Shown here: positions 7,431 to 33,344 of the stretch, in pieces
Position numbering within the stretch: the first letter of the stretch is position 1
Layout: each line of letters begins with the position of its first letter
Source: Syntrophobacteraceae bacterium
GTDB taxonomy: Bacteria; Desulfobacterota; Syntrophobacteria; Syntrophobacterales; Syntrophobacteraceae
Direction of reading: 5' to 3'
Length of the DNA stretch: 34,239 nt
Assembly (NCBI GenBank): GCA_031292215.1
Contig: JARLHO010000107.1
Span: 1-34,239, forward strand
Translations under genes and position numbers: made by a program
The notes under the pieces: model-generated
Databases searched by the model: none
The model's input: the letters and a program-made list of their open reading frames with translations, nothing else
Told to the model about the DNA's origin: nothing

Positions 7431-7487
7431 TACTATCCCCGGTTCGATAAGTAACGCTTGTTAATCCCCTGATACATGCCCGACCGC

Positions 7488-7868
7488 TTAGCGAGGGACA
7501 ATTTTTCCCAGCTTCTCTTCGAGGGTCGCAGCCGTGAATGGCTTTACAATGTAGTTGCTGACCTTCGCCTTTACCGCTTCCATTATGTTTTCTTTCTGCG
7601 CTTCGGCAGTAACCATCAAAAACGGAGTGTTCTTTATCTTATCGTTTGCGCGGACCTCCTTTAGAAGCTCTAGACCCGTCATCCTGGGCATATTCCAATC
7701 CGAGACTATCAAATCGATTTTCGTTGTCTTCAGGACCTCCAGGGCCGCCAATCCATCCTCGGCTTCTATTACGCTTTGAAAATCGAGGTCGCGCAGAATC
7801 TTTCGCACTATGCGCCGCATCGTGACAAAATCGTCAACTACGAGCACTGTAAGGTCCTTGTAAGCCAT
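7488..7868 (-). CDS. cheY: CheY response regulator
   Basis: Single-domain receiver, 126 residues, with the complete CheY active site: acidic pair VVDDF (Asp12, Asp13), phospho-acceptor VSDWNMP (Asp57), the Thr in LMVTAEAQ and the Lys in YIVKPF. VSDWNMP and MVTAEAQKE closely match motor-binding CheY proteins, so this is the better candidate for the flagellar output of the two receivers in the operon. It sits between cheB (16-base gap) and cheA. GAGGT upstream of the ATG serves as ribosome site. Confidence 0.93.
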
Positions 7869-7884
7869 GTATTGCGGTACCTCC

Positions 7885-8970
<1,086 letters not shown>

Positions 8971-9006
8971 CTAAACAGTGTTCACAAAGCCCGCCAGCCA
9001 AAATAC

Positions 9007-9471
9007 TCAACCGGACAGATATTCGAGAGCCGCCGAACCGGCCGGCTCCCCTGAAAAAGTGAAGCCCAGCCCGCAGACCCTCCGGGCTGAATTGTCCTCC
9101 TCGGCTCCGCCCCTCCACGCCCGTGGTATCCCCAATTTCCAGTCCGAACCGGGGGCATGAGCGTGACAGCCGCCGGCGACCATGTTCGCCAGTTCCCTCA
9201 GACTGTCTACGAGATCGTCTTCTTTTACCTCATCCGCCCTCGCCTCATCGATGCCCAAAAAGTTTGCAGTTATCATTTTTGCAAATTTTTCGCCGATTCG
9301 CATCCTAAGGACTATACACCCCTCGCTATGTTCCAGGCGAGTCTCCGATCCGTACTCGAAAACCCCTTCGCCTTCGCCTTCGCGCTCCTCGAAGTCCACA
9401 TCCGTAAAATACATGGTCTCGAAGACCTCAGAAATCACTTCCTTCAGAACTCCTTGCCGCAGGAAAACCAT
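9007..9471 (-). CDS. cheX: CheX/CheC-type CheY-P phosphatase-like protein
   Basis: A 154-residue protein with the CheC/CheX/FliY phosphatase signature D-x3-E-x2-N in DSLRELANMVAGG (Asp89, Glu93, Asn96), the helix that enters the CheY active site in CheX. Only one such motif is present, as in CheX rather than CheC. The residues after 105 are low in recognisable pattern. The gene overlaps the upstream cheY by 44 bases, and its ATG has a G-rich ribosome site (GGGGG). With CheZ also encoded here, the operon has two unrelated CheY-P phosphatases. CheX identity is inferred from the motif and position; a CheC-like role with CheD next door is an alternative. Confidence 0.72.
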   Translation of the reverse strand: MVFLRQGVLKEVISEVFETMYFTDVDFEEREGEGEGVFEYGSETRLEHSEGCIVLRMRIGEKFAKMITANFLGIDEARADEVKEDDLVDSLRELANMVAGGCHAHAPGSDWKLGIPRAWRGGAEEDNSARRVCGLGFTFSGEPAGSAALEYLSG

Positions 9472-9850
9472 CTGGCGCCCCCATGATCCGATTCAGCAAA
9501 GCCCCGATCTCCTCGGGACGAAAAGGTTTGCGGATGTAGCCACTCGCCCCGAGCTCCATCAGAAGCTTTAGCCTCTCTTCATTGGCCTCGGTCGTAACGA
9601 ACACAACCGGAGTGTTGCTAAATAGCTCCTTTTGCCTCAAAATCCTCAAAAACTCGATGCCGTCCATTTCCGGCATGTGAACGTCGGACAAGATCAGGTC
9701 TATCCACTCGCCCTCCAACATAGCGAGGGCTTCCCTGCCGTTTGAGGCCTCCAGACATTGCCCGATCTCAAAGCCGGAAAGTCGCAAAGTCTTTAGCAGG
9801 ACCTTTCGCATCGATCCGGAATCATCCACCATCAGTACATTGTAGGCCAT
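9428..9850 (-). CDS. cheY: CheY-like response regulator
   Basis: Single-domain receiver of 140 residues: acidic pair MVDDS, phospho-Asp56 in ILSDVHMPEMDG, Thr in VFVTTEANEE and Lys in YIRKPFRPEE. It has a short C-terminal tail beyond the receiver fold that overlaps the start of the CheX-like gene. The operon therefore carries two receivers. This one diverges more from motor-type CheY and might act as a phosphate sink or adaptation regulator, but that is inference from sequence style only. Confidence 0.9.
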   Translation of the reverse strand: MAYNVLMVDDSGSMRKVLLKTLRLSGFEIGQCLEASNGREALAMLEGEWIDLILSDVHMPEMDGIEFLRILRQKELFSNTPVVFVTTEANEERLKLLMELGASGYIRKPFRPEEIGALLNRIMGAPDGFPAARSSEGSDF

Positions 9851-9884
9851 TGCGTCACCAAATGATCCATTCCAGCAGCATAAG

Positions 9885-10403
9885 TCAAATCTCTACTTCG
9901 GCATCCCTTCCGACCTTCATGAATACTTTGCCGGTATCCATCAGCAACCGTACGGTGCGGTTGACCTCTCCACCCACGTGTTCGGCCGAGACAGCCACGT
10001 TGTTTCGCCAAAAAATCTTGCGCATCGCCAGGCAGTTTCTTGTCCCTATGTTGAAAACACCGTTGGGATCAAGCGTTTGAGCCCCACCAACCGATTTCAC
10101 CACGATGTTCTCTTTCCTGGCCCCCAATTGGTAGCTGCTTTTGAAAAGATGCGTGATTCCGGTATCTGCGAACATGCATGGGTTTTTCTTGGCCTTCTCC
10201 AGATCCAGAGTCGATTCGGGCAGCATATAATGAAGCATTCCGCCCACTGACGCGACCGGATCGAAAATCACCACGGCTATGCAGGACCCCAGGGAATAGG
10301 TTATCAAAAGCTCATCGGCCGAGTTGCTGACAGCCATATCCGCCACCCCGATCACTTTCCTTATCCGAGTCTGTACTGTGCTCAATGCCCCCGGATGTTT
10401 CAT
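9885..10403 (-). CDS. cheD: CheD receptor glutamine deamidase
   Basis: Deamidates specific glutamines of chemoreceptors; in many bacteria it also binds CheC. The 172-residue protein has the nucleophile cysteine in TYSLGSCIAV and the catalytic histidine in GGMLHYMLP, followed by the family's FADTGI and KSVGGAQTLD blocks and a GTRNCLAMRKIFW segment. ATG 10403 with GGAG five bases upstream is chosen over a TTG one codon earlier. It lies 30 bases after cheR. Confidence 0.94.
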   Translation of the reverse strand: MKHPGALSTVQTRIRKVIGVADMAVSNSADELLITYSLGSCIAVVIFDPVASVGGMLHYMLPESTLDLEKAKKNPCMFADTGITHLFKSSYQLGARKENIVVKSVGGAQTLDPNGVFNIGTRNCLAMRKIFWRNNVAVSAEHVGGEVNRTVRLLMDTGKVFMKVGRDAEVEI

Positions 10404-10433
10404 CAAAGCTCCAATTTCGTAAGATCCCCGCTA

Positions 10434-11267
10434 TCACTTATTACGGTATATAGCCGGCTGAACATAAGATAACTTATGGGCCAGTCCCGTAAGACTCTCG
10501 GAATGACCTACACAAAAGTACCCCCCGACGCCGAGAAAACCAGACATTTTATTGACCAGTTCCTCCTGGGTCTTTTTGTCGAAATAGATCATCACGTTTC
10601 GGCAGAAAATAAAGTCGAACGGCCCCTTGAACGGGTAGGGCTCCTTGAGGTTCAACCGGTGGAAAGTTATGAGCCGCTTTACATCGGGAACTACCTGGAA
10701 ATCCGAGGCGCCGTTGCCCCCGCCGGCCTTTCGAAAATAGGCCTGCCTTAGCGCCGGAGGAACCTTTTTCACCTTCTCCTCCGAATAGACCCCACGGCTT
10801 GCCATCTCCAGCACCCGCGTCGATATGTCGGTTGCAAGGATCTTGAAATCCCACTTCGTGTTGTCCTGCAAGTGAGCCAGCACGCACATCGCCAGGCTGT
10901 AGGGCTCTTCGCCCGTAGAACACCCCGCGCTCCAAATCCGTATTTTGGTGTTCCTTTCTTTTCGCTTTGCCTCGACAAGTTCGGGCAGACCCACCCTCTC
11001 TATGAAATCGAAATGCTGGATCTCGCGAAAAAAATAGGTGAGGTTAGTTGAAATGGAATCGAGAAAATTTACGAATTCACCGGGGTTGCCCCCCGATGTA
11101 ATCAATTCGAAATACTCTTTATAGGTATCGATGCCGGTCATGCGCAGCCGCTTGTTAAGCCTTGCCTGCAACAGAGCTTTTTTGCCTTCGTGAAGGTTTA
11201 TCCCGCACTGCTCGTAGACAAGCCGGCTGTACTGCAAAAACAGGCTGTTCGACATATCGTTTTCCAT
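10434..11267 (-). CDS. cheR: CheR chemoreceptor methyltransferase
   Basis: SAM-dependent methyltransferase that methylates receptor glutamates during adaptation. The 277-residue product has the all-alpha N-terminal domain, the SAM-binding motif IWSAGCSTGEEPYSLAM, the ILATDIS strand and FDFIFCRNVMIYFDKKTQ typical of CheR. No C-terminal tetratricopeptide or receptor-tether extension is present. ATG 11267 follows GAGG. It is the second gene of the operon, 54 bases after cheW. Confidence 0.96.
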   Translation of the reverse strand: MENDMSNSLFLQYSRLVYEQCGINLHEGKKALLQARLNKRLRMTGIDTYKEYFELITSGGNPGEFVNFLDSISTNLTYFFREIQHFDFIERVGLPELVEAKRKERNTKIRIWSAGCSTGEEPYSLAMCVLAHLQDNTKWDFKILATDISTRVLEMASRGVYSEEKVKKVPPALRQAYFRKAGGGNGASDFQVVPDVKRLITFHRLNLKEPYPFKGPFDFIFCRNVMIYFDKKTQEELVNKMSGFLGVGGYFCVGHSESLTGLAHKLSYVQPAIYRNK

Positions 11268-20752: not shown

Positions 20753-21973
20753 TCATCGGGCGACGGACTCATTCGGCACCGACGATTTTAGACCTTCGAA
20801 CAGGACGAGCACAACGAGATTGACAAAAATGATCCCCGCACACAGGTTGAATAGAAAAGCGACAGAGCGGCCGGAGGCAATCAATACCCCTCCAAGGTAT
20901 GGGCTGATGAAAAAACCCGCATCCATGGCGAACAAAGCCAGATTTATATTTACTCCCCGAAGTTGGGGCGCTGACACCTCGAAAAGCGTTGCGTTCAGCA
21001 GGGGCATGATAAAACCTATGCAAAGCCCGTAGTAGCCGGCCATTAGAAAAAACATGAAATTTCCATTCATGTGACCGAAAAGCATAAAACATGGGGCAAG
21101 GAGAAGCATGAAAACCTGGAGTATCCTGGTCTTGTCGATCTTATCGAAAAAGAGTCCTCCACCAAGGCGCAGGGCTATCATGACGATAGTTGCGATCGTG
21201 AAAAACCAGCCCACTTCGGTAATCGAGTTTGCCGCGGCATACCCTTTCATAAAATAGAAGACCGTGGCATAGGAAAGATAGACAAAGAGGTTTACCAGGA
21301 GCAGGAGACATATCCGGGGGTCTTTGAGGTTCGTTCGGATTTCATCGATTTTCGGCCGCTTTACCAGGACCCCCTCCACCTCGCTCAGCGCATTATTCAA
21401 TCTTTTCCGCAGCAGGAGAAGCAAAAGCAGCGCAGGGATCGCCAGTATTGTCACTCCTCGATATATTTGAGCCTCATTTTGCGTGTATCCCTTGAGCGAT
21501 TCGGTGATCAGGGGCATTATGGCGTAGGGAACCAGCACCGACACGCTGATAATGCCAAAACCCTGCCCGCTTTTATCCTTGGGAATGAAATGGACCACCA
21601 GCGCCATGGCCGCCGATACAAGCAAAACGAAAGCGGCCCCATGGATGACCCGAAGGACTATAAGGCCCGGCACGGTAACCACCCATCCGTAGGAGCAAAG
21701 AACACCCATAATCAAGATCAAGGCTGCAATCATTGCAGCGGCGGCATTTTTTGCATGCAGCAGGGGCGCCGCCGCAAGGCGCAACAGGAAAGCGCTCATC
21801 GGCTCCAGCCCCACAAGGAAGCCCCTCCAGTCGGAGGGGATGGAGATTCTGGCCAAGTAGTCGAAAAAGCTGTAGAATACCGCCATGTTACAGAATGAAA
21901 AAAAGATGATGAGGTTGAGCATTACAAATTCGATAGAGAAGAGTCTCTGCCTGTCGGTCGTTTGCAAGGTCAA
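20753..21973 (-). CDS. MFS transporter
   Basis: Inner-membrane carrier of the major facilitator superfamily, 406 residues, with about 12 hydrophobic helices. A central cytoplasmic stretch (RKRLNNALSEVEGVLVKRPKIDEIR) separates the two halves. The segment IVLRVIHGAAFVLLVSAA corresponds to helix 4 of drug- and metabolite-type MFS proteins. The start is a TTG at 21973 that overlaps the aminotransferase stop by 4 bases, with AAGG just upstream, so translation is coupled. The substrate is unknown. As the last gene of an operon with an aminotransferase it may export or import the amino compound that enzyme handles. Confidence 0.87.
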   Translation of the reverse strand: MTLQTTDRQRLFSIEFVMLNLIIFFSFCNMAVFYSFFDYLARISIPSDWRGFLVGLEPMSAFLLRLAAAPLLHAKNAAAAMIAALILIMGVLCSYGWVVTVPGLIVLRVIHGAAFVLLVSAAMALVVHFIPKDKSGQGFGIISVSVLVPYAIMPLITESLKGYTQNEAQIYRGVTILAIPALLLLLLLRKRLNNALSEVEGVLVKRPKIDEIRTNLKDPRICLLLLVNLFVYLSYATVFYFMKGYAAANSITEVGWFFTIATIVMIALRLGGGLFFDKIDKTRILQVFMLLLAPCFMLFGHMNGNFMFFLMAGYYGLCIGFIMPLLNATLFEVSAPQLRGVNINLALFAMDAGFFISPYLGGVLIASGRSVAFLFNLCAGIIFVNLVVLVLFEGLKSSVPNESVAR

Positions 21974-23094
21974 AACATCCTTCCTTCCTTCAGGATTTTT
22001 GATAAAGATTCGGCAAATGCTTCGAGAGCTTCCCGGTGGGAGACGGTAATCCTTATCCAGTTGGGGAAACGAAAACCGGTCATTGCGCGCACCATAACGC
22101 CGCAGGTCATCATCTTCCTGTACGCCAGGCTGTCGCTTATCGGTAGATGCGTCATCACGAAATTGCCTTCACCGTGAACGCAGTCAAGTCCCATCAGGTC
22201 AAGTTCTTTCAGGAGGAACCCCTTGCCCGCCCTCACGCTTTCGCGGGTGCGCCCGACGTGCTCCGGGTCGTCCAGGGCCGAAAACGCCCCCACCTGCGCC
22301 AGGGCGTTTACCGAGTACACGACACAGGTGCGCCGGATAATGTCTACGACCTCGCTGCTTCCGGCAAGATAGCCGATGCGAAGTCCGGCAAGACCATACA
22401 TCTTGGAAAAGGTCCTAAAGACCACAAGGTTGGGGTAATTGGCTATTAAAGCCATCGAATCCGGGAAATCCGGGTTTTCGACGAACTCCCTGTACGCCTC
22501 ATCCACCACCACGATGCAGCGTCGATCGACCCTGTCGAGAAACGAGCACAGCGTGCGCTTGTCCCACCAGCTTCCGGTAGGGTTGTTGGGATTGCAGATA
22601 AAGAGGATTTTGCTGCGTTCGTCGATCCTTTCGATCATTGCCCCGGCATCGAACCCGTAATCCACCAGCGGGACGAGGCGCGCCTCGAACCCGGAAAATT
22701 CAGCCACCCATTCATAAACCGCGAAGGTCTTGTCCGCGGTGATTATGTTATCGCCCTGCCGGCAGAATGCCTTTATCGCAAAAGCGATCACTTCGTTTGC
22801 GCCGTTTCCCACGATGAACTGGTCCGGACGCATCCCGAAAATACCGCCCAGTTTTTGCCTGAGGTGATAGCAGTCGCCGCTCGGATATATGGACGCGCGA
22901 GTGGTATCGAACGCCCGGAGCGCTCTGCGGGAAGTCTCCGGAGGCCCAAGCGGGTTTTCATTGTTGTTCAAACGATAGAGCTTTGGGCAGCCGTAGAGTT
23001 TTTTCAGATCATCATCGGGCTTGCTCGGTATGTAGGCTTCGAAACATTTGACATAATCGGGAACCAGCCTCTCCAGGTCGGGAAAAGGGGTCAT
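21970..23094 (-). CDS. HisC-like class I/II aminotransferase
   Basis: PLP-dependent aminotransferase of 374 residues related to histidinol-phosphate aminotransferase. The N-terminus has YRLNNNENPLGPP, the cofactor region VGNGANEVIAFAIKAF, and CNPNNPTGSWWD and VVVDEAYREFV follow. The PLP lysine lies in FRTFSKMYGLAGLRIGYL. No other his gene is nearby and both neighbours are non-biosynthetic, so this is more likely a specialised relative (aromatic or threonine-phosphate-decarboxylase-like) than the true HisC. It overlaps both neighbours by 4 bases, giving a tightly coupled three-gene operon. Confidence 0.85.
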   Translation of the reverse strand: MTPFPDLERLVPDYVKCFEAYIPSKPDDDLKKLYGCPKLYRLNNNENPLGPPETSRRALRAFDTTRASIYPSGDCYHLRQKLGGIFGMRPDQFIVGNGANEVIAFAIKAFCRQGDNIITADKTFAVYEWVAEFSGFEARLVPLVDYGFDAGAMIERIDERSKILFICNPNNPTGSWWDKRTLCSFLDRVDRRCIVVVDEAYREFVENPDFPDSMALIANYPNLVVFRTFSKMYGLAGLRIGYLAGSSEVVDIIRRTCVVYSVNALAQVGAFSALDDPEHVGRTRESVRAGKGFLLKELDLMGLDCVHGEGNFVMTHLPISDSLAYRKMMTCGVMVRAMTGFRFPNWIRITVSHREALEAFAESLSKILKEGRMF

Positions 23095-24413
23095 GGACGT
23101 TTCCCCCCGTACTGAAAGACAACGACATCGGCCTTTCCGGCATAGGGCAGCACGAAGCGCGGCTCAAAGCCCTGCGCGAGGAGTCCGGGGATGAAGAGGG
23201 TCTGCCATGCGTGGCCCAGGTCGACGGCGAAATGAATGTTAGGAATTTTCTCGCTCTTCATGAGCTTCAAATGGCGCCCGATGTTTTCCGCCTCGTCTGC
23301 TCCCGGCCACATGGGCCGCAGTGTGACACGCCCCCGGGGGCGATCGAATTCGGCGCAAAGAACCGAATGACGTGGAACAGTTTCGCCCGAGGGACGCTCC
23401 AACCTGATCTCTCTTGGCAGCACCAGCTTCGCGTATTCACGGCGAATAAACACCTCAAGATCCGGATGGACCCATACGGTTGCCCCCATGTCCTCTCGAA
23501 GCATCCTGAACCACGCTTCCACGGCCGTGGAAGACCCATCGGGCCCATAAGCGTCAAAAGTCCCCAAAAGCTCGAACCGGCGCTCGGGAAATTGCGGAGG
23601 AGGGCCGACGTTTACGATCCCGACAGCAGAGGTCCTTGCAACAGAGCCAATGCAACCGTCGAGAAGCTCTTCGGAAATGGAGGATGCCAAAGGCTGGTTG
23701 AAGATATACGGGCCGAAGCACTCGACCATTTTTTCTCCGAGGTTTCGCCAAAAAATTGCCCCTCCAATTTGCCCCTCCCCTCCCACTGCCGCTAAACACG
23801 CATATTCTCCCGCAGCCATCATGTCCGCCAGTCTCCCGGGATGGAGTAGGATATCGGAAAGTCCGCCGGCATCGTAATACGATAGGGCCAGCCGCGAGAT
23901 AAACTTGAGTTCTTCCGGCGCGGGCGGTCTCAGGATGGTTTTTGACAGTGGGGCGGCCACTGCCGCCTCGACCTCCGGGGGCAGAGGGGAGTAGGATTTT
24001 TCCTTGACCAGCATAAGCTCCAGTCCCCCTCCTTTCTCTCGGTCCAACAGGAAACGGTCAACCGATCTGGATGCGATGACAAGTCCCATCGAATCAAGTG
24101 CCGCGTCATCGTCAAAAGCTATGGAGGCGGTAATGTTGAAAGCCTCCAGGTCGAAAGCCTCGCTCGGAAGTGAAAAAACCGCCTGCGCGAAGTAGCCCCC
24201 GTTAGAGCAGGCAATTTGTAAACGGCCTCCAGAGCGGTTCGCCTTCCGGCACAGGTGCATGAATACTTCTTCGGCGGCCAGGGTCAGCCTGAGCGATTCA
24301 TCGGACCCCAGTCCAAAGCAAAAGGCCGCCTTTTCAACGAAAGCGGTCACAACCGGCAGGAAAATTTCGTCACCAACAACCGACAATAGAAGCTTTTCGG
24401 TCTCACGTTTCAC
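23091..24413 (-). CDS. Fusion of degenerate RsbW-like HATPase and GNAT-like domain
   Basis: A 440-residue protein with two parts. Residues 1-140 resemble an anti-sigma-type HATPase (LRLTLAAEEVFMHLCRKA for the N box, then GGGLELMLVKEK at the end). The N-box Asn is replaced by His and the glycine-rich G2 loop is poorly kept, so ATP binding may be lost. Residues 165-440 resemble GNAT acyltransferase folds and end in VDLGHAW then LLAQGFEPRFVLPYAG. That ending matches the end of the second GNAT-like protein (28449-29510). The GTG start follows GGAG. It is the first gene of the aminotransferase-MFS operon and diverges from the binding-protein/SpoIIE operon. I infer a regulatory or acyl-transfer output linked to the partner switch; the exact role is unknown. 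Confidence 0.6.
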   Translation of the reverse strand: MKRETEKLLLSVVGDEIFLPVVTAFVEKAAFCFGLGSDESLRLTLAAEEVFMHLCRKANRSGGRLQIACSNGGYFAQAVFSLPSEAFDLEAFNITASIAFDDDAALDSMGLVIASRSVDRFLLDREKGGGLELMLVKEKSYSPLPPEVEAAVAAPLSKTILRPPAPEELKFISRLALSYYDAGGLSDILLHPGRLADMMAAGEYACLAAVGGEGQIGGAIFWRNLGEKMVECFGPYIFNQPLASSISEELLDGCIGSVARTSAVGIVNVGPPPQFPERRFELLGTFDAYGPDGSSTAVEAWFRMLREDMGATVWVHPDLEVFIRREYAKLVLPREIRLERPSGETVPRHSVLCAEFDRPRGRVTLRPMWPGADEAENIGRHLKLMKSEKIPNIHFAVDLGHAWQTLFIPGLLAQGFEPRFVLPYAGKADVVVFQYGGKRP

Positions 24414-24746: not shown

Positions 24747-25757
24747 ATGCGATGCCTGCGCACCACTTCGAGATCTTTATTGGTCGTGATTTTTTTGGCC
24801 GCCGCCTTAGGGGCCAATGCGGCGCAGCCGCACACCGTGGGCGCTCCCGGCCCCATATGCTTCATCCCTCAGTGGACGCCCCAGGCGCAGTTCGCAGGCT
24901 ATTACGTCGCTTTCGAAAAAGGTTTTTACGCAGCTCGCGGTCTCGATGTAAAAATCCTTGAAGGCGGCCCGGCAAGGCCTTCGGCCGAGTGGCTCCAAAA
25001 AGGCGCGGCCGAATTTGCGACGATGTTTCTGTCGACCGCAATCGTCGAGCGCGCGAAAGGAATCAGGCTTGTCAACATAGGGCAGATCGTGGCACGGTCC
25101 TCTCAAGTGCTCATTGCCAAAAAATCGAGCGGCATCAAGTCCTTTCGGGATATGAACGGCAAGAAAGTCGGCCTTTGGGGCGGGGAACTGAGCATACTGC
25201 CAAGGGCTCTTTTCGAAAAATATGGCTTGCATGTCGTCGCGGTCCCCCAATCATGGTCGGTCGATCTTTTCCTGCGCGGTGGGGTGGATGTGGCTTCGGC
25301 TATGATGTACAACGAATATCATGCCATTTTGCAGGCAGGAGTCGATCCTGACGAACTGACGGTATTCTCTCTTGGCGGCCTTGGCTTCAATGTTCCGGAA
25401 GATGGAATTTACTGCATGGAAAGCACGTTTGAAAAAGATCCCCAAACCTGCCGCCGTTTCGTCCAGGCCTCCATCCAGGGATGGAGATACGCTTTTGAAC
25501 ATCCCGCGGAGGCGCTGGGTATCGTCATGAAATATGTAAACGAGGCCCGCATAGCCACCAATGGGCAGCATCAGGAGTGGATGCTCGACGATATCCGCAA
25601 GGCCATCGATTTGCCCCCGCCGGGGGGAAGTCCCGCCGCAGTAAAGAAAAGCGACTACATGGCTATAGGCGGAGAACTAATGACAAACGCAATTATTCAC
25701 CGTATTCCGGCATATTCGAATCTATTTAAGAATTGTGCGGCCGTCCATGAGAAGTAG
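24747..25757 (+). CDS. Periplasmic NMT1/THI5-like substrate-binding protein
   Basis: Exported ligand-binding protein of 336 residues. A signal peptide occupies about residues 1-26 (basic MRCLRTTSRS, then LLVVIFLAAALGANA). The mature start has the NMT1/THI5-family signature PQWTPQAQFAGYYVAFEKGFY followed by GLDVKILEGGP. MFLSTAIVERAKGIRLVNIGQ and SWSVDLFLRGGVDVASAMMYNEY complete the two-lobed fold. Family members bind pyrimidines, sulfonates or similar small organics for ABC import. Here no permease or ATPase gene follows. Instead the stop codon overlaps the start of a membrane SpoIIE phosphatase, so I infer that the protein presents its ligand to that sensor. The ribosome site is weak; the start is fixed by the signal peptide. 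Confidence 0.85.
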   Translation: MRCLRTTSRSLLVVIFLAAALGANAAQPHTVGAPGPICFIPQWTPQAQFAGYYVAFEKGFYAARGLDVKILEGGPARPSAEWLQKGAAEFATMFLSTAIVERAKGIRLVNIGQIVARSSQVLIAKKSSGIKSFRDMNGKKVGLWGGELSILPRALFEKYGLHVVAVPQSWSVDLFLRGGVDVASAMMYNEYHAILQAGVDPDELTVFSLGGLGFNVPEDGIYCMESTFEKDPQTCRRFVQASIQGWRYAFEHPAEALGIVMKYVNEARIATNGQHQEWMLDDIRKAIDLPPPGGSPAAVKKSDYMAIGGELMTNAIIHRIPAYSNLFKNCAAVHEK

Positions 25758-27684
25758 GACCATCGCGTTTAAACTTGTAGTATTTACGCTCTCGGGCACG
25801 ATGGCCATTTTTGTGTCCGCCTTCGCCTGCGTCTATTTTTCTTCCAAAGCGTCCATGATGCGTTATGTCGAAATGAATGCCCGCAATGCGACTCATGCGG
25901 CGGCATATCAAATCGAATCGGTGTTGCGGGGGATTGAAAAAGTTCCTCTAAATTATGCGGCCCTCTTGACATCGGGCGACTGCAAGCCGGCGGCTCTTGC
26001 CATGTTGCCGGAGCAAATGGTTTCGACAAATCCGGAAATCTTCGGAGCGGCGATTGCGTTCGAGCCCGGAGCGTCCGGTCCGGGGAGCCTATATTATGCC
26101 CCTTACTGTTACAGGGGAAAAAATGGCGGCCTGAAAAACGTCATGCTCGGCAATGAGTCTTACGATTATTTTACCATGGACTGGTACCAGATCCCCGAGC
26201 AACTCGGCCGCGCGGCATGGACCGAACCCTATTACGACGAGGGCGGGGGAAACGAGACGATGGCGACTTTTTCGGTTCCCTTTTACAAGGTGCTGCAAGG
26301 AAAAAATAAGTTCCAGGGCGTGGTGACAGCAGATGTCGCTTTGCGCGGGCTAAAGCAGATCGTCTCCTCGACCAGGCTCAACAAGTCCGGCTATTCGTTT
26401 CTGATTACCCGAAACGGCGTGTTCGTTACTTCTCCCGACAGCACTCTGATCATGACCAATTCGATATTCAGCGTTGCAGAGGAAAAACACAGCGCGCTGC
26501 TTCGCCGCATCGGAAGGAAGATGATCGCGGGCGGCGAGGGATTTGCGGCGCTGCCAAAGGGTCTTCTGTATCCGGGCAAATGCTGGCTCTATTATACGCC
26601 CCTTCCTTCGATAGGGTGGTCTATCGGGATCGTCACTCCCGAAGGCGTCATGCTCGCAGACGTATTGCGCTTTAGCCGCATGGTGATCCTGATCGGGCTC
26701 TTGGGTGTTTGCCTCATGGCGCTCATCGTAATGTTGATTGCGAAAAGGATTTCCAAGCCCATAAAGGATCTATCCGCGACCACCCTGGAGATTGCCCGCG
26801 GCAATCTCAATGCGACCTTGCCCGACATCCACAGGGGCGACGAAATCGGCGCGCTTGCTCGTTCATTTGAAGACATGCGGGTTGCCCTCAAGGATTACAT
26901 CGAAAACCTTACCCAAACGACGGCGGCCAAGGAAAGAATCGAGAGCGAACTAAAAATCGCCGGCAGAATTCAAATGAGTTTCCTTCCCAAGGCGTTTCCG
27001 CCGCTGCCGGGAAAAACCCCGGTGGATATAGCCGCAAGGCTTGAGCCGGCAAGGCAGATCGGGGGAGACCTCTATGATTACTTTCTGCTCGATGACGACC
27101 ACCTGTTTTTCACCGTCGGCGACGTATCGGATAAAGGCATTCCCGCAGCCCTTTTCATGGCTGTGACCAAGACACTTCTAAAGGGTATCGCCGAGAAGGG
27201 CATGTCGCCCTCCGAGATCCTTGACAAGTGCAACCTCGAACTGATCGGTGGGAACGACTCGATGATGTTTGTGACCCTGTTTTGCGCAATCCTCGATCTG
27301 CGCTCGGGCAGGCTCAGGTACTCCAACGCCGGTCACGAACACCCGTTTATCTTACGGCGGGAAGGCCCGCTGGAGACACTGCCCATCCCGGAAGGCTTTG
27401 TTCTCGGGGTAAACGAGGATGCGGGTTATCAGACGATGGAGGTCGAACTGAAACCCGGAGACCGTTTGATAGTCTATACCGACGGGGTTACAGAGGCGGT
27501 CAATGGCGCCGGCGAGTTCTACGCTCACCAAAATCTCATTTCGGTGCTCGAATCTTGCGGGTCTCTTTGCGCCGAGGGAATTGTCAGCAGAATCCTCGAC
27601 TCGGTCAAGACTTTTTCGTCCGGAGTTCCACAGGCCGATGACATTACATTGCTTGCCGTTTCGCTAACCGGCCCCAAACTTTGA
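25747..27684 (+). CDS. Membrane sensor phosphatase: dCache-HAMP-SpoIIE
   Basis: PP2C-type serine phosphatase that should dephosphorylate a STAS antagonist in response to an external signal. The 645 residues read: membrane helix about 7-31, periplasmic dCache domain about 40-295 (MDWYQIPEQ, WTEPYYDEG, VVTADVALRGLKQIV, SGYSFLITRNGVFV), second helix about 307-328, HAMP (KRISKPIKDLSATTLEIARG, GDEIGALARSF), and a SpoIIE/RsbU phosphatase from about 405. The latter has metal and catalytic motifs GGDLYDYF, GDVSDKGIPAALFM, YTDGVTEAV and ADDITLLAV. Its ATG lies inside the end of the binding-protein gene (11-base overlap); a GTG 12 bases earlier is an alternative start. The next gene encodes the probable substrate. 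Confidence 0.92.
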   Translation: MRSRTIAFKLVVFTLSGTMAIFVSAFACVYFSSKASMMRYVEMNARNATHAAAYQIESVLRGIEKVPLNYAALLTSGDCKPAALAMLPEQMVSTNPEIFGAAIAFEPGASGPGSLYYAPYCYRGKNGGLKNVMLGNESYDYFTMDWYQIPEQLGRAAWTEPYYDEGGGNETMATFSVPFYKVLQGKNKFQGVVTADVALRGLKQIVSSTRLNKSGYSFLITRNGVFVTSPDSTLIMTNSIFSVAEEKHSALLRRIGRKMIAGGEGFAALPKGLLYPGKCWLYYTPLPSIGWSIGIVTPEGVMLADVLRFSRMVILIGLLGVCLMALIVMLIAKRISKPIKDLSATTLEIARGNLNATLPDIHRGDEIGALARSFEDMRVALKDYIENLTQTTAAKERIESELKIAGRIQMSFLPKAFPPLPGKTPVDIAARLEPARQIGGDLYDYFLLDDDHLFFTVGDVSDKGIPAALFMAVTKTLLKGIAEKGMSPSEILDKCNLELIGGNDSMMFVTLFCAILDLRSGRLRYSNAGHEHPFILRREGPLETLPIPEGFVLGVNEDAGYQTMEVELKPGDRLIVYTDGVTEAVNGAGEFYAHQNLISVLESCGSLCAEGIVSRILDSVKTFSSGVPQADDITLLAVSLTGPKL

Positions 27685-27726
27685 AATTGTCCGATTTATC
27701 AACAAATGGAGCAAGGGAGAACAAAT

Positions 27727-28059
27727 ATGGATGTGAGCAGCCACAAGCAGGATAAATTCTTCATAGTAAGGGTCAGCGGCCGCCTGGACGCCACGACGTC
27801 GCCCGAATTCGAAAAGTCCTGCCTGGAGTGGATCGGGCAGGGGGAATCGATGTTCATCGTGGATATGAAGGAGCTGGAATATATGAGCAGCGCAGGGTTG
27901 AGGTCCATTTTGGTAGTTGGCAAAAAGATCAAATCGGAGGGAGGAACGCTCGCTTTCACCTCGCTTACCCCCAACGTGAACCATGTTTTTTCTATTTCCG
28001 GCTTCGGTTCGATGTTCAAGGTCCACGATTCGCTCGAAACAGCCCTCAAGAACTCGTGA
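27727..28059 (+). CDS. STAS anti-sigma-factor antagonist
   Basis: A 110-residue single STAS domain of the SpoIIAA/RsbV type. The strand-turn-helix reads FIVDMKELEYMSSAGLRSIL. Ser55 aligns with the phosphorylated Ser58 of SpoIIAA, so the protein should be phosphorylated by the RsbW-like kinase encoded 7 bases downstream and dephosphorylated by the SpoIIE protein encoded 42 bases upstream. ATG 27727 is chosen for the AAGGGAG before it; an in-frame ATG seven codons earlier has no such site. Confidence 0.92.
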   Translation: MDVSSHKQDKFFIVRVSGRLDATTSPEFEKSCLEWIGQGESMFIVDMKELEYMSSAGLRSILVVGKKIKSEGGTLAFTSLTPNVNHVFSISGFGSMFKVHDSLETALKNS

Positions 28060-28066
28060 GACGCCC

Positions 28067-28471
28067 ATGGTGACCTTGCGCCTGCCCGCCGTCATGGAGT
28101 CTTTTGGAGCTTTCCGCTCCTTCGTTATCGAAGAGATGGAGCGCGAAGGCGACCTCCGGGAGTTGATCCCCGGGGTCGATCTCGTTTTGGAGGAACTCCT
28201 GGTCAATGTGATTCATTATGCCTATCCGAAGGGGGAAGGAGAAATCGAAGTCGAGTGCGGGGCCTGCGGTTCCGGGAAGTTCCGCGTGACCGTAAAGGAT
28301 TGGGGAAACCCTTTCAACCCCCTGGAGCAGGCGGACCCCGATGTCACGGCAGACATCGACAGCCGCGAAGTGGGCGGCGTGGGAATTTTCCTGGCGAGGC
28401 AAATGGCCAGCCGATTGAACCATGCCTACAGAGACGGTGGAAATGTCATTACCGCCTGGTTTGAAAAGTAA
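28067..28471 (+). CDS. RsbW/SpoIIAB-like serine kinase (HATPase)
   Basis: A 134-residue GHKL ATPase of the anti-sigma family. The N box reads VLEELLVNVIHYAYP (Glu43, Asn47), the G1 box VKDWGNPFNPL, and the G2 box EVGGVGIFLARQMASRLNHAY. All key residues are present, so it should be an active kinase for the adjacent STAS protein. The ATG at 28067 precedes the conserved domain; upstream in-frame codons run into the STAS gene. No sigma factor gene is in the window, so the partner it holds may be something else, possibly one of the GNAT-like proteins. Its last 23 bases overlap the end of the convergent GNAT-like gene. Confidence 0.9.
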   Translation: MVTLRLPAVMESFGAFRSFVIEEMEREGDLRELIPGVDLVLEELLVNVIHYAYPKGEGEIEVECGACGSGKFRVTVKDWGNPFNPLEQADPDVTADIDSREVGGVGIFLARQMASRLNHAYRDGGNVITAWFEK

Positions 28472-29510
28472 GGACATCCTCCCGGTCATTTCTAATATAT
28501 TCAAGAAGTTCGCCAGCCTGGTCGCTAAATAATTTAATGTTTTCCCACTCCGGCCTTTCGATGGTTTTTTGCATCAGCAACCCGTCGCCGCCAAACCAGC
28601 GCGGCAGGAGCGCTCCGTAGAAATAACCCTGCTCGCGAAGTATTTGCACCGCCCCTCCGACCCATGCGCAGTCAAGATGTACCCGAACCTGGAGCACCTT
28701 GACGTTCCCCTTGAGAATCCGTGCTTCCAGCTCCTTCATCCAGGACTCGAAATCTTCCCCTATGGCCATAACCGAGATACGGGCGACCTGCGCAAATTCA
28801 AAAATTTCAAACGAAACGCTCGATACCGAACCCGCTGGCGGAGCATCGCCCGAGGCCTGCAGAGTGCGCCGGTCATCGAGCCTGGAATAACTGCTCCTCA
28901 AAACCTCTTCATAGACGGAGGGCAGATAAATCGCGTGGGGCTCCGGGACGTAGCACCGAAATGCGACGACAGAGGTGACACGGCCAAGCGAGCTCTTTTC
29001 CCTGGAGAAGGTCTCTTCGGGCATTAGATCTATCTCCAGGCCCGTTTCAATGAATTTGTGCCGCCGGACCACCCTCTGCATGTGGAGATGATTGCAGACC
29101 GCCTCGCCCCATGAGGCATCGATTCCAAGAGCCGGCGCCAACAGTTCATAGGTGTAGTGCAATAATGACTGGTTGAGGCCCTCTTTCCTGAAATCCGCCA
29201 AGACCAGCCCGCCCCCGGCTTCATAGAGACCCGGAAAGGGGGCGGAGCGAAAAAAACCCATGTGGCCGATGATTTCCCCATCTTCCTTGCGCGCCACGAT
29301 GGAGTAGTTGTCCCCCGTTTCGAGCGCCCGGGCAAGATCTTCGGGATCATAGAAGCGCTTGAAGGGATATTTGTCGCCGTAGACGGCGTGGAAGAGCCGC
29401 CCGATTCCCGGTGCGTCCTGCGGTCTAAACAGGTGGATGAAAACCGTTTCCCCGGAGCTGAGTTTAGTGACAACCGGCTCGAGCCGACTGATTGTTTCAG
29501 TATCCATCAT
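28449..29510 (-). CDS. GNAT-like protein, last gene of the molybdenum hydroxylase operon
   Basis: A 353-residue protein. The N-terminal half is a GNAT fold: VFIHLFRPQDAPGIGRLFHA, YSIVARKEDGEIIGHMGF, then an acetyl-CoA loop-like VLADFRKEGLNQSLLHYTYE. The C-terminal half ends with VHLDCAW, ILREQGYFYGALLPRW and TIERP, which matches the end of the HATPase-GNAT fusion at 23091-24413. The ATG lies 5 bases after the stop of the FAD-subunit gene, placing it in the molybdenum hydroxylase operon. Its 3' end overlaps the convergent RsbW-like gene by 23 bases. Acyltransferase activity is inferred from the fold; it may instead be a non-enzymatic partner of the HATPase. Confidence 0.7.
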   Translation of the reverse strand: MMDTETISRLEPVVTKLSSGETVFIHLFRPQDAPGIGRLFHAVYGDKYPFKRFYDPEDLARALETGDNYSIVARKEDGEIIGHMGFFRSAPFPGLYEAGGGLVLADFRKEGLNQSLLHYTYELLAPALGIDASWGEAVCNHLHMQRVVRRHKFIETGLEIDLMPEETFSREKSSLGRVTSVVAFRCYVPEPHAIYLPSVYEEVLRSSYSRLDDRRTLQASGDAPPAGSVSSVSFEIFEFAQVARISVMAIGEDFESWMKELEARILKGNVKVLQVRVHLDCAWVGGAVQILREQGYFYGALLPRWFGGDGLLMQKTIERPEWENIKLFSDQAGELLEYIRNDREDVLTFQTRR

Positions 29511-29515
29511 TTGGG

Positions 29516-30367
29516 CTATCCTTTTCGTTCATACGCTACATCGAGTAAACGCAGGAGGAGGTTTCCGGCGACCGCGCGCCGATAGTCCGCATCGGCCCGA
29601 ACATCGCTTATCGGGCGGACGACATTTCGCACAAGGTCGGCAGCCCTGCTTAAGGAGGCAGCCGAGAGCGGTTTTCCGCTAAGCGCCTCTTGCGCCTCGG
29701 GGCAACTGAATACGGTCGGCGCAACGCTTCCCCAGGCAAAAGCCGCCTTTTCCACCATGCCTCCTGGCCCCAGGCGAAGGAGCGCCGCCATGGTCACCAC
29801 CGAGCAGGCGAGGGCGTTGCGAAGCCCCACTTTCTCAAAGTGGTGTACATTGTATTCTTGCGGCTTTTTCACCCATACCGCCGAAAGTATCTCTGCTCTC
29901 TTGAGGCAGGTCGCGCCGGGGCCGGTTATAAATTCCCGGATCGGCGCCCGCCGCGAACCCTCCCTGGAGAGCAGCTCCACTTCGGCTTCCATCGCGTAGA
30001 GCGGAGGAAGGGTGTCTCCCGCAGGAGAGGCCGTGCAGATATTTCCGCCGATCGTTCCCATGTTGCGCACAAGTGGAGAGCCGATTTGCCCGATGGCCTT
30101 CCGGAGCGCGGGAAGACACCGGACAAGCGGCTCCTCGACAAGCCGACCGTAGGTAGCGCAAGAGCCGATGCGAACGCAGCCGTCCTGTTCGCCGACACCT
30201 TTTAATTCCTCGATTCGATCGAGACATATCAATGCTTCCGGGTCGAGGAGCCCCTTATACATTCTCACGAGAAGATCGGTGCCCCCGGCATACACCCTCG
30301 CTTGCGGCCTGTCGCTCAAGAGTCGCCAGAGCTCTTCGAGAGATCCCGGCAAAATGACTTCCCTCAT
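29516..30367 (-). CDS. Molybdenum hydroxylase FAD-binding subunit
   Basis: Medium subunit (CoxM/XdhB-like) that passes electrons between the iron-sulfur subunit and an acceptor through FAD. The 283 residues contain the two FAD signatures YAGGTDLLVRM and NMGTIGGNICTASPAGD, plus the C-terminal DADYRRAVAGNLLLRLL typical of the family. The true ATG (30367) overlaps the stop of the 2Fe-2S gene by 4 bases and has GGGAGAAGG before it; a longer frame to 30550 only reads through that gene. Substrate specificity resides in the large subunit. Confidence 0.92.
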   Translation of the reverse strand: MREVILPGSLEELWRLLSDRPQARVYAGGTDLLVRMYKGLLDPEALICLDRIEELKGVGEQDGCVRIGSCATYGRLVEEPLVRCLPALRKAIGQIGSPLVRNMGTIGGNICTASPAGDTLPPLYAMEAEVELLSREGSRRAPIREFITGPGATCLKRAEILSAVWVKKPQEYNVHHFEKVGLRNALACSVVTMAALLRLGPGGMVEKAAFAWGSVAPTVFSCPEAQEALSGKPLSAASLSRAADLVRNVVRPISDVRADADYRRAVAGNLLLRLLDVAYERKG

Positions 30368-30843
30368 CTCGCCTTCTCCCTGCGTATCTGTAAAGCCGCG
30401 GCTTCCACCGCATCGACTATTTTCACATACCCGCTGCACCTGCAAAGATTGCCGCTCAAACCCTCCCGGATTTGTTCCCTCGTCGGATCGCTGTTTTTGT
30501 CCAGCAGATCGACCGCCGAAAGCACCATTCCCGGAGTACAGAACCCGCATTGCACGGCGCCGTTTTCAATAAACGCTTCCTGTACGGGATGCATACCGCC
30601 GCCGTTTTGCGAAAGACCTTCGATCGTGGTGATACTGCGGCCTTCAATCTGTGCCGCCGTCATCAGGCAAGACAAGCGCGCGCGGCCGTCCACCAGGATG
30701 GTGCATGCCCCGCATTCTCCCGCCCCGCAACCTTCCTTTGTGCCTGTTAGCATCAGCTCTTCGCGCAACACCTCGACCACTTTGCGGTCCGCGGAAACGT
30801 CAACGCCGGTTTGCTTTCCGTTCAAAGTAAACGAAATCTTCAT
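30364..30843 (-). CDS. Molybdenum hydroxylase 2Fe-2S subunit
   Basis: Small subunit (CoxS/XdhC-like) of 159 residues with two [2Fe-2S] clusters. The plant-ferredoxin-type cluster uses Cys39, Cys44, Cys47 and Cys59 (EGCGAGECGACTILVDG). The second cluster uses Cys99, Cys102, Cys134 and Cys136 (QCGFCTPGM, NLCRCSGY). It overlaps both the large-subunit stop and the FAD-subunit start by 4 bases, so all three subunits are made in step. Confidence 0.95.
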   Translation of the reverse strand: MKISFTLNGKQTGVDVSADRKVVEVLREELMLTGTKEGCGAGECGACTILVDGRARLSCLMTAAQIEGRSITTIEGLSQNGGGMHPVQEAFIENGAVQCGFCTPGMVLSAVDLLDKNSDPTREQIREGLSGNLCRCSGYVKIVDAVEAAALQIRREKAR

Positions 30844-33131
30844 CGGGCCGCTCCCCTGCCGCTCAAGGCGCCAAGAACACTCGCCGCAGTGAGCGGAGAC
30901 CTTCGAAGCCTGCGCCCGATCGCATCCTCGACTGCGGCGGCAACGGCGGGCAAAGGCGCGTTCGTCCCGACTTCCCCGATCCCTTTCATCCCGAAAGGTC
31001 CGGTCGACTCAACCGTTTCGACGCAAACCGAAGTGATGTCGGGAACATCCATGGAAGTTGGGATGATGTAGTTTGTGAAATTGGGATTCAATATTTTCCC
31101 CCGTTCGGTAAGGACTTTTTCCATCAGGCCGTAACCCAGCCCCTGGGCGACAGCTCCGTGGACCTGCTGGTCGAAGCAGGCCGGGTTGATGACCCTGCCC
31201 CCGTCAGTGAGGGCAAGATAGTCCTTCACATCAATTTTTCCTGTCAGTTCGTCTACTTCGACATACACCAGGTGCGCGGCGTACGAAAAGAGCACGTGGG
31301 GAAAACCGAGCCTGAATTCTTTGGCCGAGTCCGGATTATCCTGGGCAACCGGCATTACGAAATGTTTTACCGCGATCCGGTCGGTTTGAGAAAACATGCG
31401 TCCCAAAAGCTCGAACGGGACTTCCCTGCCCGAAGGAAGATGCTTTACCTTGCCTGGCAGCAGGACCAGCCCGCAGGGTTGATCGAGCATCAGTAACAGC
31501 GACGCGCGGTGCAGGAGCTTCTCCTTCATGTCTTCGCACGCCGGAATGAGCGCGTTTCCATACGTGTAGGTAGTTCTGCCGGCTGAGGAAGAACCCGATG
31601 GATGAGCAAGGTCGGTGTCGGGCTGGATGATTTCCAGGTGCGAATCGTCCTGGCCAAGGGTTTGTCCGGCGATCTGGATGAAACCGCTCGAGTTGCCCTG
31701 TCCCATGTCGGGAACGCCGGAGTAAATACGGATTTTCCCTTCCTTCGTCAGTTCAACCCTTGCGATCGCCGAATCCGGGAGGCCCCGGCCATACCCCATC
31801 GCGTTGGAAACCGCGGCGATGCCGACCCCTCTTTTCTTTTGCGGCCCGGCCTCGCTTTTCCACTTGGCGCGATCCTTCCACAGTCGATGGACGCCGAGCC
31901 CTTCCAGGCACGCCACGATGCCCGTGGAATGGACGAGCGTAACGCCTGCCCCGTTCGTGTCTCCGCGCCTCAGCCCATTTTTGAGCCTGATATCCAGGGG
32001 GCTCAGTCCAAGTTTGGACGCGAGCTGGTCCATCATGGTCTCGATGCCAAAAGAGGCCTGGCAAACACCAAACCCGCGCATCGCCCCGCTTATAGGGTTA
32101 TTTGTGTATACGCACCATCCTTCCACAAGCGTATTGGGAACACGGTAGGGCCCGCAGGCATGTTCCATTCCGAGCGCCATCACCTCGACGCCAAGATGCG
32201 CGTAAGGGCCGGTATCGTATATGAGCCTGCAACTAACGGCATGCAGCGTGCCGTCGCGCATCGCTCCAACCCGGTACCGCATCCGGACGGGATGGCGCTT
32301 GTAGCCGGCCGTGAAACTTTCCTCGCGACCCCACCGCATCTTGACCGGCCGCCCGCGCGCGCGTAAAGCGGCAAGGGCAAGAAGACACTGAACGGTGGCC
32401 CCGTCTTTGCCCCCGAATCCTCCTCCAAGACACGGGCTGACAATTCGGATCGCCTCTACATCCAACCCGAGCGCGTGGGCGATTTCGAACCGGTCCCGGA
32501 AAGGCGCCTGGGTCGATACGATCATTGTGATTCGGCCGTCGGGTTCCTGCCACGCCAATCCGTTTTGAGTCTCGAGAAACGCAGGTTCCTGCGCCGACAC
32601 CTCAAGGGAATCCTCGACCACCACATCGCATTCCTCGAAGGCGCCCCGGGCATCTCCCACCCTTATGACAGCTTTATGGAGCAGGTTCCCCGATTCATGC
32701 ACCAGCGGCGCTTCCGACCTCATGGCCTCTTCGGGGTCGAAGACGCCCGCAAGGGGCTCAAGCTCCACTGCGATAAGGCCCAGAGCTTTTTCGAGCACGT
32801 CCCGGTCTTCGGCCAGAACCAGCGCCACAGCGTCCCCGCAATGTCTGACCCTGCTTCCGGCCAGCACCGGCTGGTCTTTATGGACTATGCCCTGCCGGTT
32901 TGTCCCGGGGACATCTTTTCGGGTAAGGACCGCATAAACTCCGGGGAGCGCGGCCGCCTTCGATATATCGATTTTTCGGATTATCGCGTGAGCAACCCCG
33001 GCCCTCCTGGCCCCGGCCCACAACATACCTTCGCGGCTGTAATCGATCGCGAATTTTTCTTCCCCGGTCACTTTCGCCTTTGCATCGAAACGGGGGGCGG
33101 GGTAACCGACCTCAATCATCCTTTTGATCAA
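30840..33131 (-). CDS. Molybdenum hydroxylase large (MoCo) subunit
   Basis: Catalytic subunit of a xanthine dehydrogenase/aldehyde oxidase-family enzyme that hydroxylates a heteroaromatic or aldehyde carbon with water as oxygen source. It has the N-terminal GYPAPRFDAKAKVTGEEKFA typical of the family, the cofactor loop CLGGGFGGKDG, the SGAMRGFGVCQASFGIE block, GQGNSSGFIQIAGQTLG, and the catalytic-glutamate region GMKGIGEVGTNAP. The preferred start is TTG 33131, five bases after a perfect GGAGG, giving 763 residues; ATGs at 33143 and 33218 are in frame but have poor ribosome sites. No XdhC-type maturation factor is nearby. The substrate cannot be deduced: purines, nicotinate and aromatics are all possible. 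Confidence 0.9.
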   Translation of the reverse strand: MIKRMIEVGYPAPRFDAKAKVTGEEKFAIDYSREGMLWAGARRAGVAHAIIRKIDISKAAALPGVYAVLTRKDVPGTNRQGIVHKDQPVLAGSRVRHCGDAVALVLAEDRDVLEKALGLIAVELEPLAGVFDPEEAMRSEAPLVHESGNLLHKAVIRVGDARGAFEECDVVVEDSLEVSAQEPAFLETQNGLAWQEPDGRITMIVSTQAPFRDRFEIAHALGLDVEAIRIVSPCLGGGFGGKDGATVQCLLALAALRARGRPVKMRWGREESFTAGYKRHPVRMRYRVGAMRDGTLHAVSCRLIYDTGPYAHLGVEVMALGMEHACGPYRVPNTLVEGWCVYTNNPISGAMRGFGVCQASFGIETMMDQLASKLGLSPLDIRLKNGLRRGDTNGAGVTLVHSTGIVACLEGLGVHRLWKDRAKWKSEAGPQKKRGVGIAAVSNAMGYGRGLPDSAIARVELTKEGKIRIYSGVPDMGQGNSSGFIQIAGQTLGQDDSHLEIIQPDTDLAHPSGSSSAGRTTYTYGNALIPACEDMKEKLLHRASLLLMLDQPCGLVLLPGKVKHLPSGREVPFELLGRMFSQTDRIAVKHFVMPVAQDNPDSAKEFRLGFPHVLFSYAAHLVYVEVDELTGKIDVKDYLALTDGGRVINPACFDQQVHGAVAQGLGYGLMEKVLTERGKILNPNFTNYIIPTSMDVPDITSVCVETVESTGPFGMKGIGEVGTNAPLPAVAAAVEDAIGRRLRRSPLTAASVLGALSGRGAAR

Positions 33132-33344
33132 AAACGCCTCCATTCGATGGTCGCCCGATGACCTGCCCGCGAGCGGCAAAGGGGCGGAGTCGGCTACCAT
33201 AGGCATGGCAGTTGGCATGGTAAGCCGTGAACCGATAAAAACCGTTGGAAAGTTCCGGGACGCTATGCACTGTCCGCAGCAACTGACGTCAAGTACTTCA
33301 CACTAGCAAGTTTTAAGCCGGGGTCAGGCGCTATTTAAGCGAGC

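Follow-up and report, generated by a model that had tools for sequence, protein, structure and literature searches.

A solute-binding protein paired with a dCache-HAMP-SpoIIE phosphatase, and the probable output of its partner switch

Related systems and the locus

Partner switches of the Rsb/SpoIIA type are built from RsbU or SpoIIE, RsbV or SpoIIAA, and RsbW or SpoIIAB, and in Gram-negative bacteria such switches are often without a known target. A 34,239-nucleotide stretch of DNA from a Syntrophobacteraceae bacterium (contig JARLHO010000107.1; the window hereafter) carries a locus of this kind, in which the gene for a solute-binding protein (SBP) of the NMT1/THI5 type overlaps that for a transmembrane dCache-HAMP-SpoIIE phosphatase (the sensor), with genes for a STAS protein and an RsbW-like kinase following (Table 1). 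We find that an NMT1-type SBP, which would normally serve an importer, is here the fixed partner of a membrane phosphatase. The SpoIIE phosphatase, the STAS serine and the ATP-binding serine kinase resemble the Rsb/SpoIIA switch, with the residues all intact, but the input is an SBP, no sigma factor is linked, and in the probable target an RsbW-like domain is joined to a GNAT fold.

In its logic the locus comes closest to GlnH-GlnX-PknG-OdhI of Corynebacterium glutamicum, where the Ser/Thr phosphorylation of a small metabolic regulator is set by a periplasmic SBP whose gene accompanies that of a transmembrane protein (PMC9769921). Common to both are an SBP with a transmembrane protein, Ser/Thr phosphorylation and the lack of a sigma factor; however, the regulated enzyme is a kinase there and a phosphatase here, GlnX is not a dCache protein and OdhI is not a STAS protein. 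A 2022 overview of receptors driven by SBPs covers chemoreceptors, sensor kinases, enzymes of cyclic di-GMP turnover (diguanylate cyclases and phosphodiesterases) and Ser/Thr kinases; as in those systems, the SBP gene here adjoins that of a transmembrane receptor without an importer of its own, whereas PP2C/SpoIIE phosphatases and nucleotide cyclases are not among the classes given (PMC9602780). SiaABCD of Pseudomonas aeruginosa offers a case of direct action on an enzyme, a diguanylate cyclase, by a STAS-like protein (PMC7647112, PMC8457831). There too a membrane HAMP-PP2C phosphatase and a kinase set the phosphorylation of the STAS-like protein, but SiaABCD has no SBP and its target is that cyclase; the sensor itself is not a SiaA orthologue, scoring 63.5 bits against a SiaA equivalog cut-off of 700. 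With ThiY and the other pyrimidine-type NMT1 binding proteins of ABC importers the SBP shares fold and family, the difference being that here there is no importer and the partner is a fixed sensor.

Pairing of the binding protein with its sensor

The SBP has 336 residues, begins with a hydrophobic stretch that ends at ANA/AQ, and matches its family profile well above the curated cut-off (E=5e-42; 144.6 bits versus 20.5). Its AlphaFold2 (AF2) model (pLDDT 88) is closest in the PDB to ThiY (3ix1, target TM 0.81), with thiamin-bound 4nmy also among the best matches, and the protein thus has both the periplasmic-binding fold and membership of the NMT1/THI5 family. In the sensor, which most likely starts at ATG 25747, the SpoIIE domain is matched with E=1e-51 alongside the PDC/dCache and HAMP domains, there are two hydrophobic segments (residues 11-29 and 313-331), and the metal-ligand aspartates D441, D459, D579, D631 and D632 are invariant in 87/87 homologues. 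The overlap of the two genes, ATGAGAAGTAG, is 11 bases long, and its register is the same in about half of the 26 homologous loci that have both genes. For the STAS protein the start at ATG 27727 is better supported, the start methionine being 90% conserved; counted from there the phosphorylatable residue is S55 (S62 in the open reading frame (ORF) from 27706), and it is serine in 61/61 homologues. The kinase motifs are equally constant among homologues (N-box Asn47, Gly104 and Gly106 in 48/48 each, Asp78 in 47/48), so that the PP2C aspartates, the STAS serine and the N, G1 and G2 boxes of an Rsb-type partner switch are all present. The first-pass annotation had listed these four genes with their 11-base overlap, Ser55 and intact kinase boxes, and had noted the absence of ABC genes and of a linked sigma factor; each of these points holds. 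Neither a permease nor an ABC ATPase gene adjoins the cassette in the window, no sigma gene is recognised beside it, and in the whole genome (4.9 Mb in 177 contigs, searched family by family) the window SBP is the sole NMT1 match above fragment level.

The pairing of SBP and sensor is strongly conserved. Homologues of the SBP, the sensor and a third protein introduced below (GNATW) were sought in 198 genomes of the phylum. Besides the SBP of the window there are 28 close homologues of it, nearly all encoded directly upstream of an orthologous sensor on the same strand. At least 573 SBP relatives came from a wider scan that covered 84,980 species genomes; cultured carriers include Trichlorobacter thiogenes (L113) and Azonexus hydrophilus (L117), and the best 80 loci, read in detail, came from Desulfobacterota, Chlorobium, Azonexus, Methylobacter, Lentisphaerae, Planctomycetota, Omnitrophota, Acidobacteria and Elusimicrobia. 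With duplicates removed, and an outgroup (L061) and a locus at a contig end (L106) left out, 102 distinct SBPs were counted, and the orthologous dCache-HAMP sensor follows on the same strand in 101 of them, the exception being L060. Such a conserved gene order is far above chance expectation, and a paired gene for a receptor with an extracytoplasmic domain is what is seen in SBP-activated transmembrane receptors. Many of the homologue records are metagenome-assembled genomes (MAGs), and errors in some organism labels are possible (on the tree L092 and L118, from supposedly different phyla, are near neighbours); the gene-order result holds, as it is independent of these labels. The same arrangement is found in many anaerobic bacteria and seems to be undescribed so far; a literature search on SBP together with SpoIIE returned nothing relevant, which is weak evidence of absence as it covered open-licence papers only.

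Could the SBP nevertheless be an orphan receptor whose ABC importer is encoded at another locus, and could co-regulation explain why it lies beside SpoIIE? NMT1 proteins are usually SBPs of ABC importers, and relatives at about 32-38% identity are indeed encoded beside ATPase and permease genes, in ABC operons of the ordinary kind. However, those operons are found only outside the clade of sensor-linked SBPs, which in a FastTree phylogeny form one supported group (SH-like 99) separate from the ABC-linked SBPs. Conserved adjacency had been proposed as the check on the first reading of the locus, with ABC-flanked homologues as the case against it; the sensor gene follows in 101/102 loci, many of them with the same 11-base overlap, and this instead assigns the SBP to the sensor. 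An ABC ATPase gene next to STAS in five loci (L092, L117, L118, L130, L132) was considered as the missing NMT1 importer and rejected, as it is GlnQ/EhuA-like and of the polar-amino-acid type, an assignment resting on L117, L118 and L130; in L118, the one locus examined for this, the ATPase has an SBP_bac_3-permease protein of its own and is hence not the partner of the NMT1 SBP. We regard the orphan receptor as very improbable and reject the SBP as part of an ABC importer, its close homologues having a sensor instead and the genome no other NMT1 protein. The assignment to the sensor is also a warning about the label 'ABC transporter substrate-binding protein', under which many sensors are annotated.

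What varies is the output. Of the 101 paired loci, 87 have SpoIIE at the end of the sensor, 10 have an adenylate/guanylate-cyclase domain there (cyclase Pfam domains are displayed for L043, L048, L055, L058 and L109) and one (L135) has a GAF-histidine kinase, the other three being cut by contig ends; in three of the 87 (L072, L100, L141) SpoIIE is fused to RsbW in one ORF. Five changes are required to place the cyclase label on the SBP tree, and starred branches force at least two of these, so the output domain has been repeatedly exchanged under one sensor head. STAS and RsbW genes appear in at least 53 and at least 48 of 104 loci respectively within the stretch examined, lower bounds as contigs end. 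The near-invariant core is therefore two genes, SBP and dCache-HAMP sensor head. The earlier description of a dedicated four-gene cassette has to be narrowed accordingly, with STAS and RsbW seen in about half of the loci and a varying output domain, and 'uncommon' does not suit an SBP with so many relatives. Because SBP and dCache-HAMP stay constant while the output varies, we argue that the target of the SBP is the sensor rather than the switch proteins, in which case phosphatases and nucleotide cyclases would join the receptors driven by binding proteins.

The SBP is not always there. A search from the sensor side found six well matching sensors without an SBP gene in front (L261-L266) and a weaker one (L267); in L261, L262, L264 and L267 an RsbW gene is followed directly by the sensor, with GNAT2 or MFS adjoining, as in the window operon minus the SBP. 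The sensor can thus function when the SBP is absent; the SBP is an add-on and cannot be the sole input, and probably extends or sharpens the ligand range of the sensor. These loci favour a second alternative, in which the dCache domain directly senses a ligand of its own, with the SBP limited to concentrating or buffering that ligand or to serving as a second, modulating input; dCache domains commonly bind ligands directly, those of Ser/Thr phosphatases included (PMC10104139). We think this unlikely, since on the SBP side the pairing is near-perfect and often overlapping, the sensor-linked SBPs form one separate group, and the key arginine of dCache_1AA domains is not conserved. The last point also led us to reject a dCache_1AA-type amino-acid sensor, as the residue corresponding to R126 of PctA is Met144 here and W, Q or L in relatives.

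The genes around the ABC-linked relatives bear on the ligand. Several of these ABC operons contain dihydropyrimidinase, PreA or cytidine deaminase, and that of a more distant relative contains cytosine deaminase. ThiY binds a formylaminopyrimidine. Because of these pyrimidine genes, and because the model is nearest to ThiY and a thiamin-bound SBP, a small heterocyclic ligand, most likely a pyrimidine-like one, is the best guess from this context.

Longer NMT1 proteins also occur. At about 30% identity, more distant SBPs occur as fusions with signalling proteins, an example being NMT1-PAS-HisKA-HATPase-REC in L061. L061 and L202-L207, whose NMT1-type SBPs lie within open frames of about 750-1320 residues, form one group on the SBP tree.

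GNATW and the proposed switch

To simplify the discussion we refer to the protein encoded at 23091-24413, on a gene divergent from that of the SBP, as GNATW, for its degenerate RsbW-like domain and GNAT-fold region, and to a second GNAT-like protein as GNAT2. GNATW has no Pfam match above cut-off. Its AF2 model (pLDDT 82) was compared with the PDB by Foldseek: the N-terminal part best matches SpoIIAB/RsbW (target TM up to 0.89), mostly from complexes with STAS partners, RsbW-RsbV included, and the C-terminal part has a GNAT fold (5jtf, 4jxq, 8iyo). Profile comparison of the N-terminus with the RsbW family by hhalign gives E=2e-12, against 0.2 and 0.5 for controls; such calls of RsbW-likeness rest on family profiles, single-sequence comparison with the window RsbW not being sufficient. 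The nucleotide-binding motifs of RsbW are lost, the N-box asparagine being present in 0/10 homologues and DxG in none.

GNATW is present in 24 of the 198 genomes and all 24 have the dCache sensor, which 35/198 carry at E<1e-20; without correction for shared ancestry, Fisher p=8e-23. Across lineages an operon recurs with GNATW, a HisC-like protein, three xanthine-dehydrogenase-type subunits, an MFS transporter and GNAT2, often with switch genes. The most complete versions (L036, L038, L046, L119) add STAS, RsbW, SBP and SpoIIE, with the whole operon on one strand. In these four and in L088, GNAT2 immediately precedes STAS-RsbW-SBP-SpoIIE in the same orientation, and in L190 and L196 STAS is directly ahead of GNATW.

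We propose an SBP-assisted partner switch free of any sigma factor, running from SBP and dCache through SpoIIE and dephosphorylation of STAS to direct control of GNATW, and we put its chances at about even. The exported SBP would bind a small heterocyclic ligand and present it, by a presumed contact, to the periplasmic dCache domain, whose signal would change the activity of the cytoplasmic SpoIIE phosphatase, with its intact catalytic residues. As the intact motifs and the established Rsb/SpoIIA mechanism suggest, the RsbW-like kinase would add a phosphate to Ser55 of STAS and SpoIIE would remove it. Unphosphorylated STAS may then dock on the RsbW-like domain of GNATW and alter its action, which is probably on products of the metabolic operon. 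Direct control of GNATW by STAS would account for the absence of a sigma factor. That periplasmic ligand capture controls STAS phosphorylation, as first suggested from the sequence, is plausible; GNATW, which that annotation had missed, is the probable output, controlled directly by the switch. If so, a fixed SBP-SpoIIE module whose probable effector bears an RsbW-like domain would show in concrete terms what a partner switch controls.

GlnQ/EhuA-like ABC ATPases lie next to or near STAS/RsbW genes in L118 (9380-10522), L092, L117, L130 and L132, and their C-terminal extension is a degenerate RsbW-like domain (hhalign 6e-12). With GNAT proteins here and ABC ATPases in Chlorobium, Methylobacter and Azonexus as carriers, degenerate RsbW folds might be portable receiver domains, by which STAS docks on enzymes and transporters and partner switching, with SBP-dCache input, replaces sigma regulation. 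We offer this wider reading tentatively, and think it somewhat likelier to fail than to hold. If confirmed, it would be new for an RsbW-like domain to act as a receiver; the parts all belong to known families, and what is new is a variant of their wiring.

Several observations weigh against the proposed switch and its extension. Inspection by eye does not show the canonical acetyl-CoA loop, Q/RxxGxG/A, where it would be expected in the GNAT part, and catalysis by GNATW is therefore uncertain. The co-occurrence statistic ignores shared ancestry, many genomes encode the GNATW operon away from the SBP gene, and the dCache-SpoIIE sensors that lack an SBP (L261, L262, L264, L267) may bind ligand by dCache alone. 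The ABC ATPase-RsbW-like fusion in four further genomes has a recognised STAS neighbour in 0/4 and SpoIIE nearby in 1/4, so its linkage to the switch is not general.

RsbW could, moreover, still control an unlinked sigma factor, of which the three sigma-region-3 proteins of the genome are candidates. In this classical anti-sigma switch the kinase would sequester the sigma factor and the neighbouring enzymes would be mere members of its regulon, as would suit the full set of canonical residues in STAS, RsbW and SpoIIE; RsbW of Chlamydia controls the housekeeping sigma66 (PMC8256260). However, three such proteins are few, none is recognised beside the cassette, and both the RsbW-like domain on GNATW and the 24/24 co-occurrence with the sensor are left unexplained. 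We consider it quite unlikely, less so than the orphan ABC receptor but more so than direct sensing by dCache.

The genome has two SpoIIE proteins. Its second partner switch (L062; G000:C104, 576-5536) has GAF-SpoIIE, RsbW and STAS genes, followed directly by MlaE, ABC ATPase and MlaD genes, and so likewise adjoins transporter genes without a sigma factor.

Neighbouring genes and minor observations

The coordinates of the switch genes and of the linked metabolic operon are given in Table 1. The HisC-like protein is probably specialised, because the source genome has another, better-scoring HisC (on C78), of which it is a paralogue.

Table 1. Genes of the switch and of the linked operon in the window
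Feature	Position	Strand	Basis
MFS transporter of linked operon	20753..21973	-	PF07690
HisC-like pyridoxal-phosphate aminotransferase	21970..23094	-	TIGR01141, 280.9 bits; adjoins GNATW gene in most GNATW loci
GNATW, degenerate RsbW-like domain (about 1-140) and GNAT-fold region; probable effector	23091..24413	-	AF2 model, hhalign, co-occurrence
NMT1/THI5-type SBP with signal peptide; proposed input subunit	24747..25757	+	PF09084, AF2 model, pairing with sensor
Transmembrane dCache-HAMP-SpoIIE (PP2C-type) phosphatase, 645 residues	25747..27684	+	PF22673, PF00672, PF07228
STAS anti-anti-sigma-type protein	27727..28059 (longer ORF from 27706)	+	PF01740, 8e-21; TIGR00377 above cut-off
RsbW/SpoIIAB-like serine kinase, N, G1 and G2 boxes intact	28067..28471	+	PF13581, 1.5e-20
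GNAT2, second GNAT-like protein	28449..29510	-	weak PF00583, below its cut-off
Xanthine-dehydrogenase-type FAD subunit	29516..30370	-	PF00941, PF03450
Xanthine-dehydrogenase-type [2Fe-2S] subunit	30364..30843	-	ORF; profile cluster across loci
Xanthine-dehydrogenase-type molybdenum subunit	30840..33218	-	nearest PucD/XdhA models, below their cut-offs

RsbW and GNAT parts are found in one ORF beside switch genes in L137 (11885-13468) and L268 (2677-4185). In L118 a single ORF of 1259 residues (5649-9425) has five SBP_bac_3 stretches followed by a permease domain. The cassettes of L092 and L118 are very similar, the records being labelled Desulfobacteraceae and Methylobacter, and a binning error in one MAG is possible. 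On the minus strand of the window, at 3871-11267, lies an apparently unrelated chemotaxis cluster with genes for CheZ, CheA, CheB and CheR.

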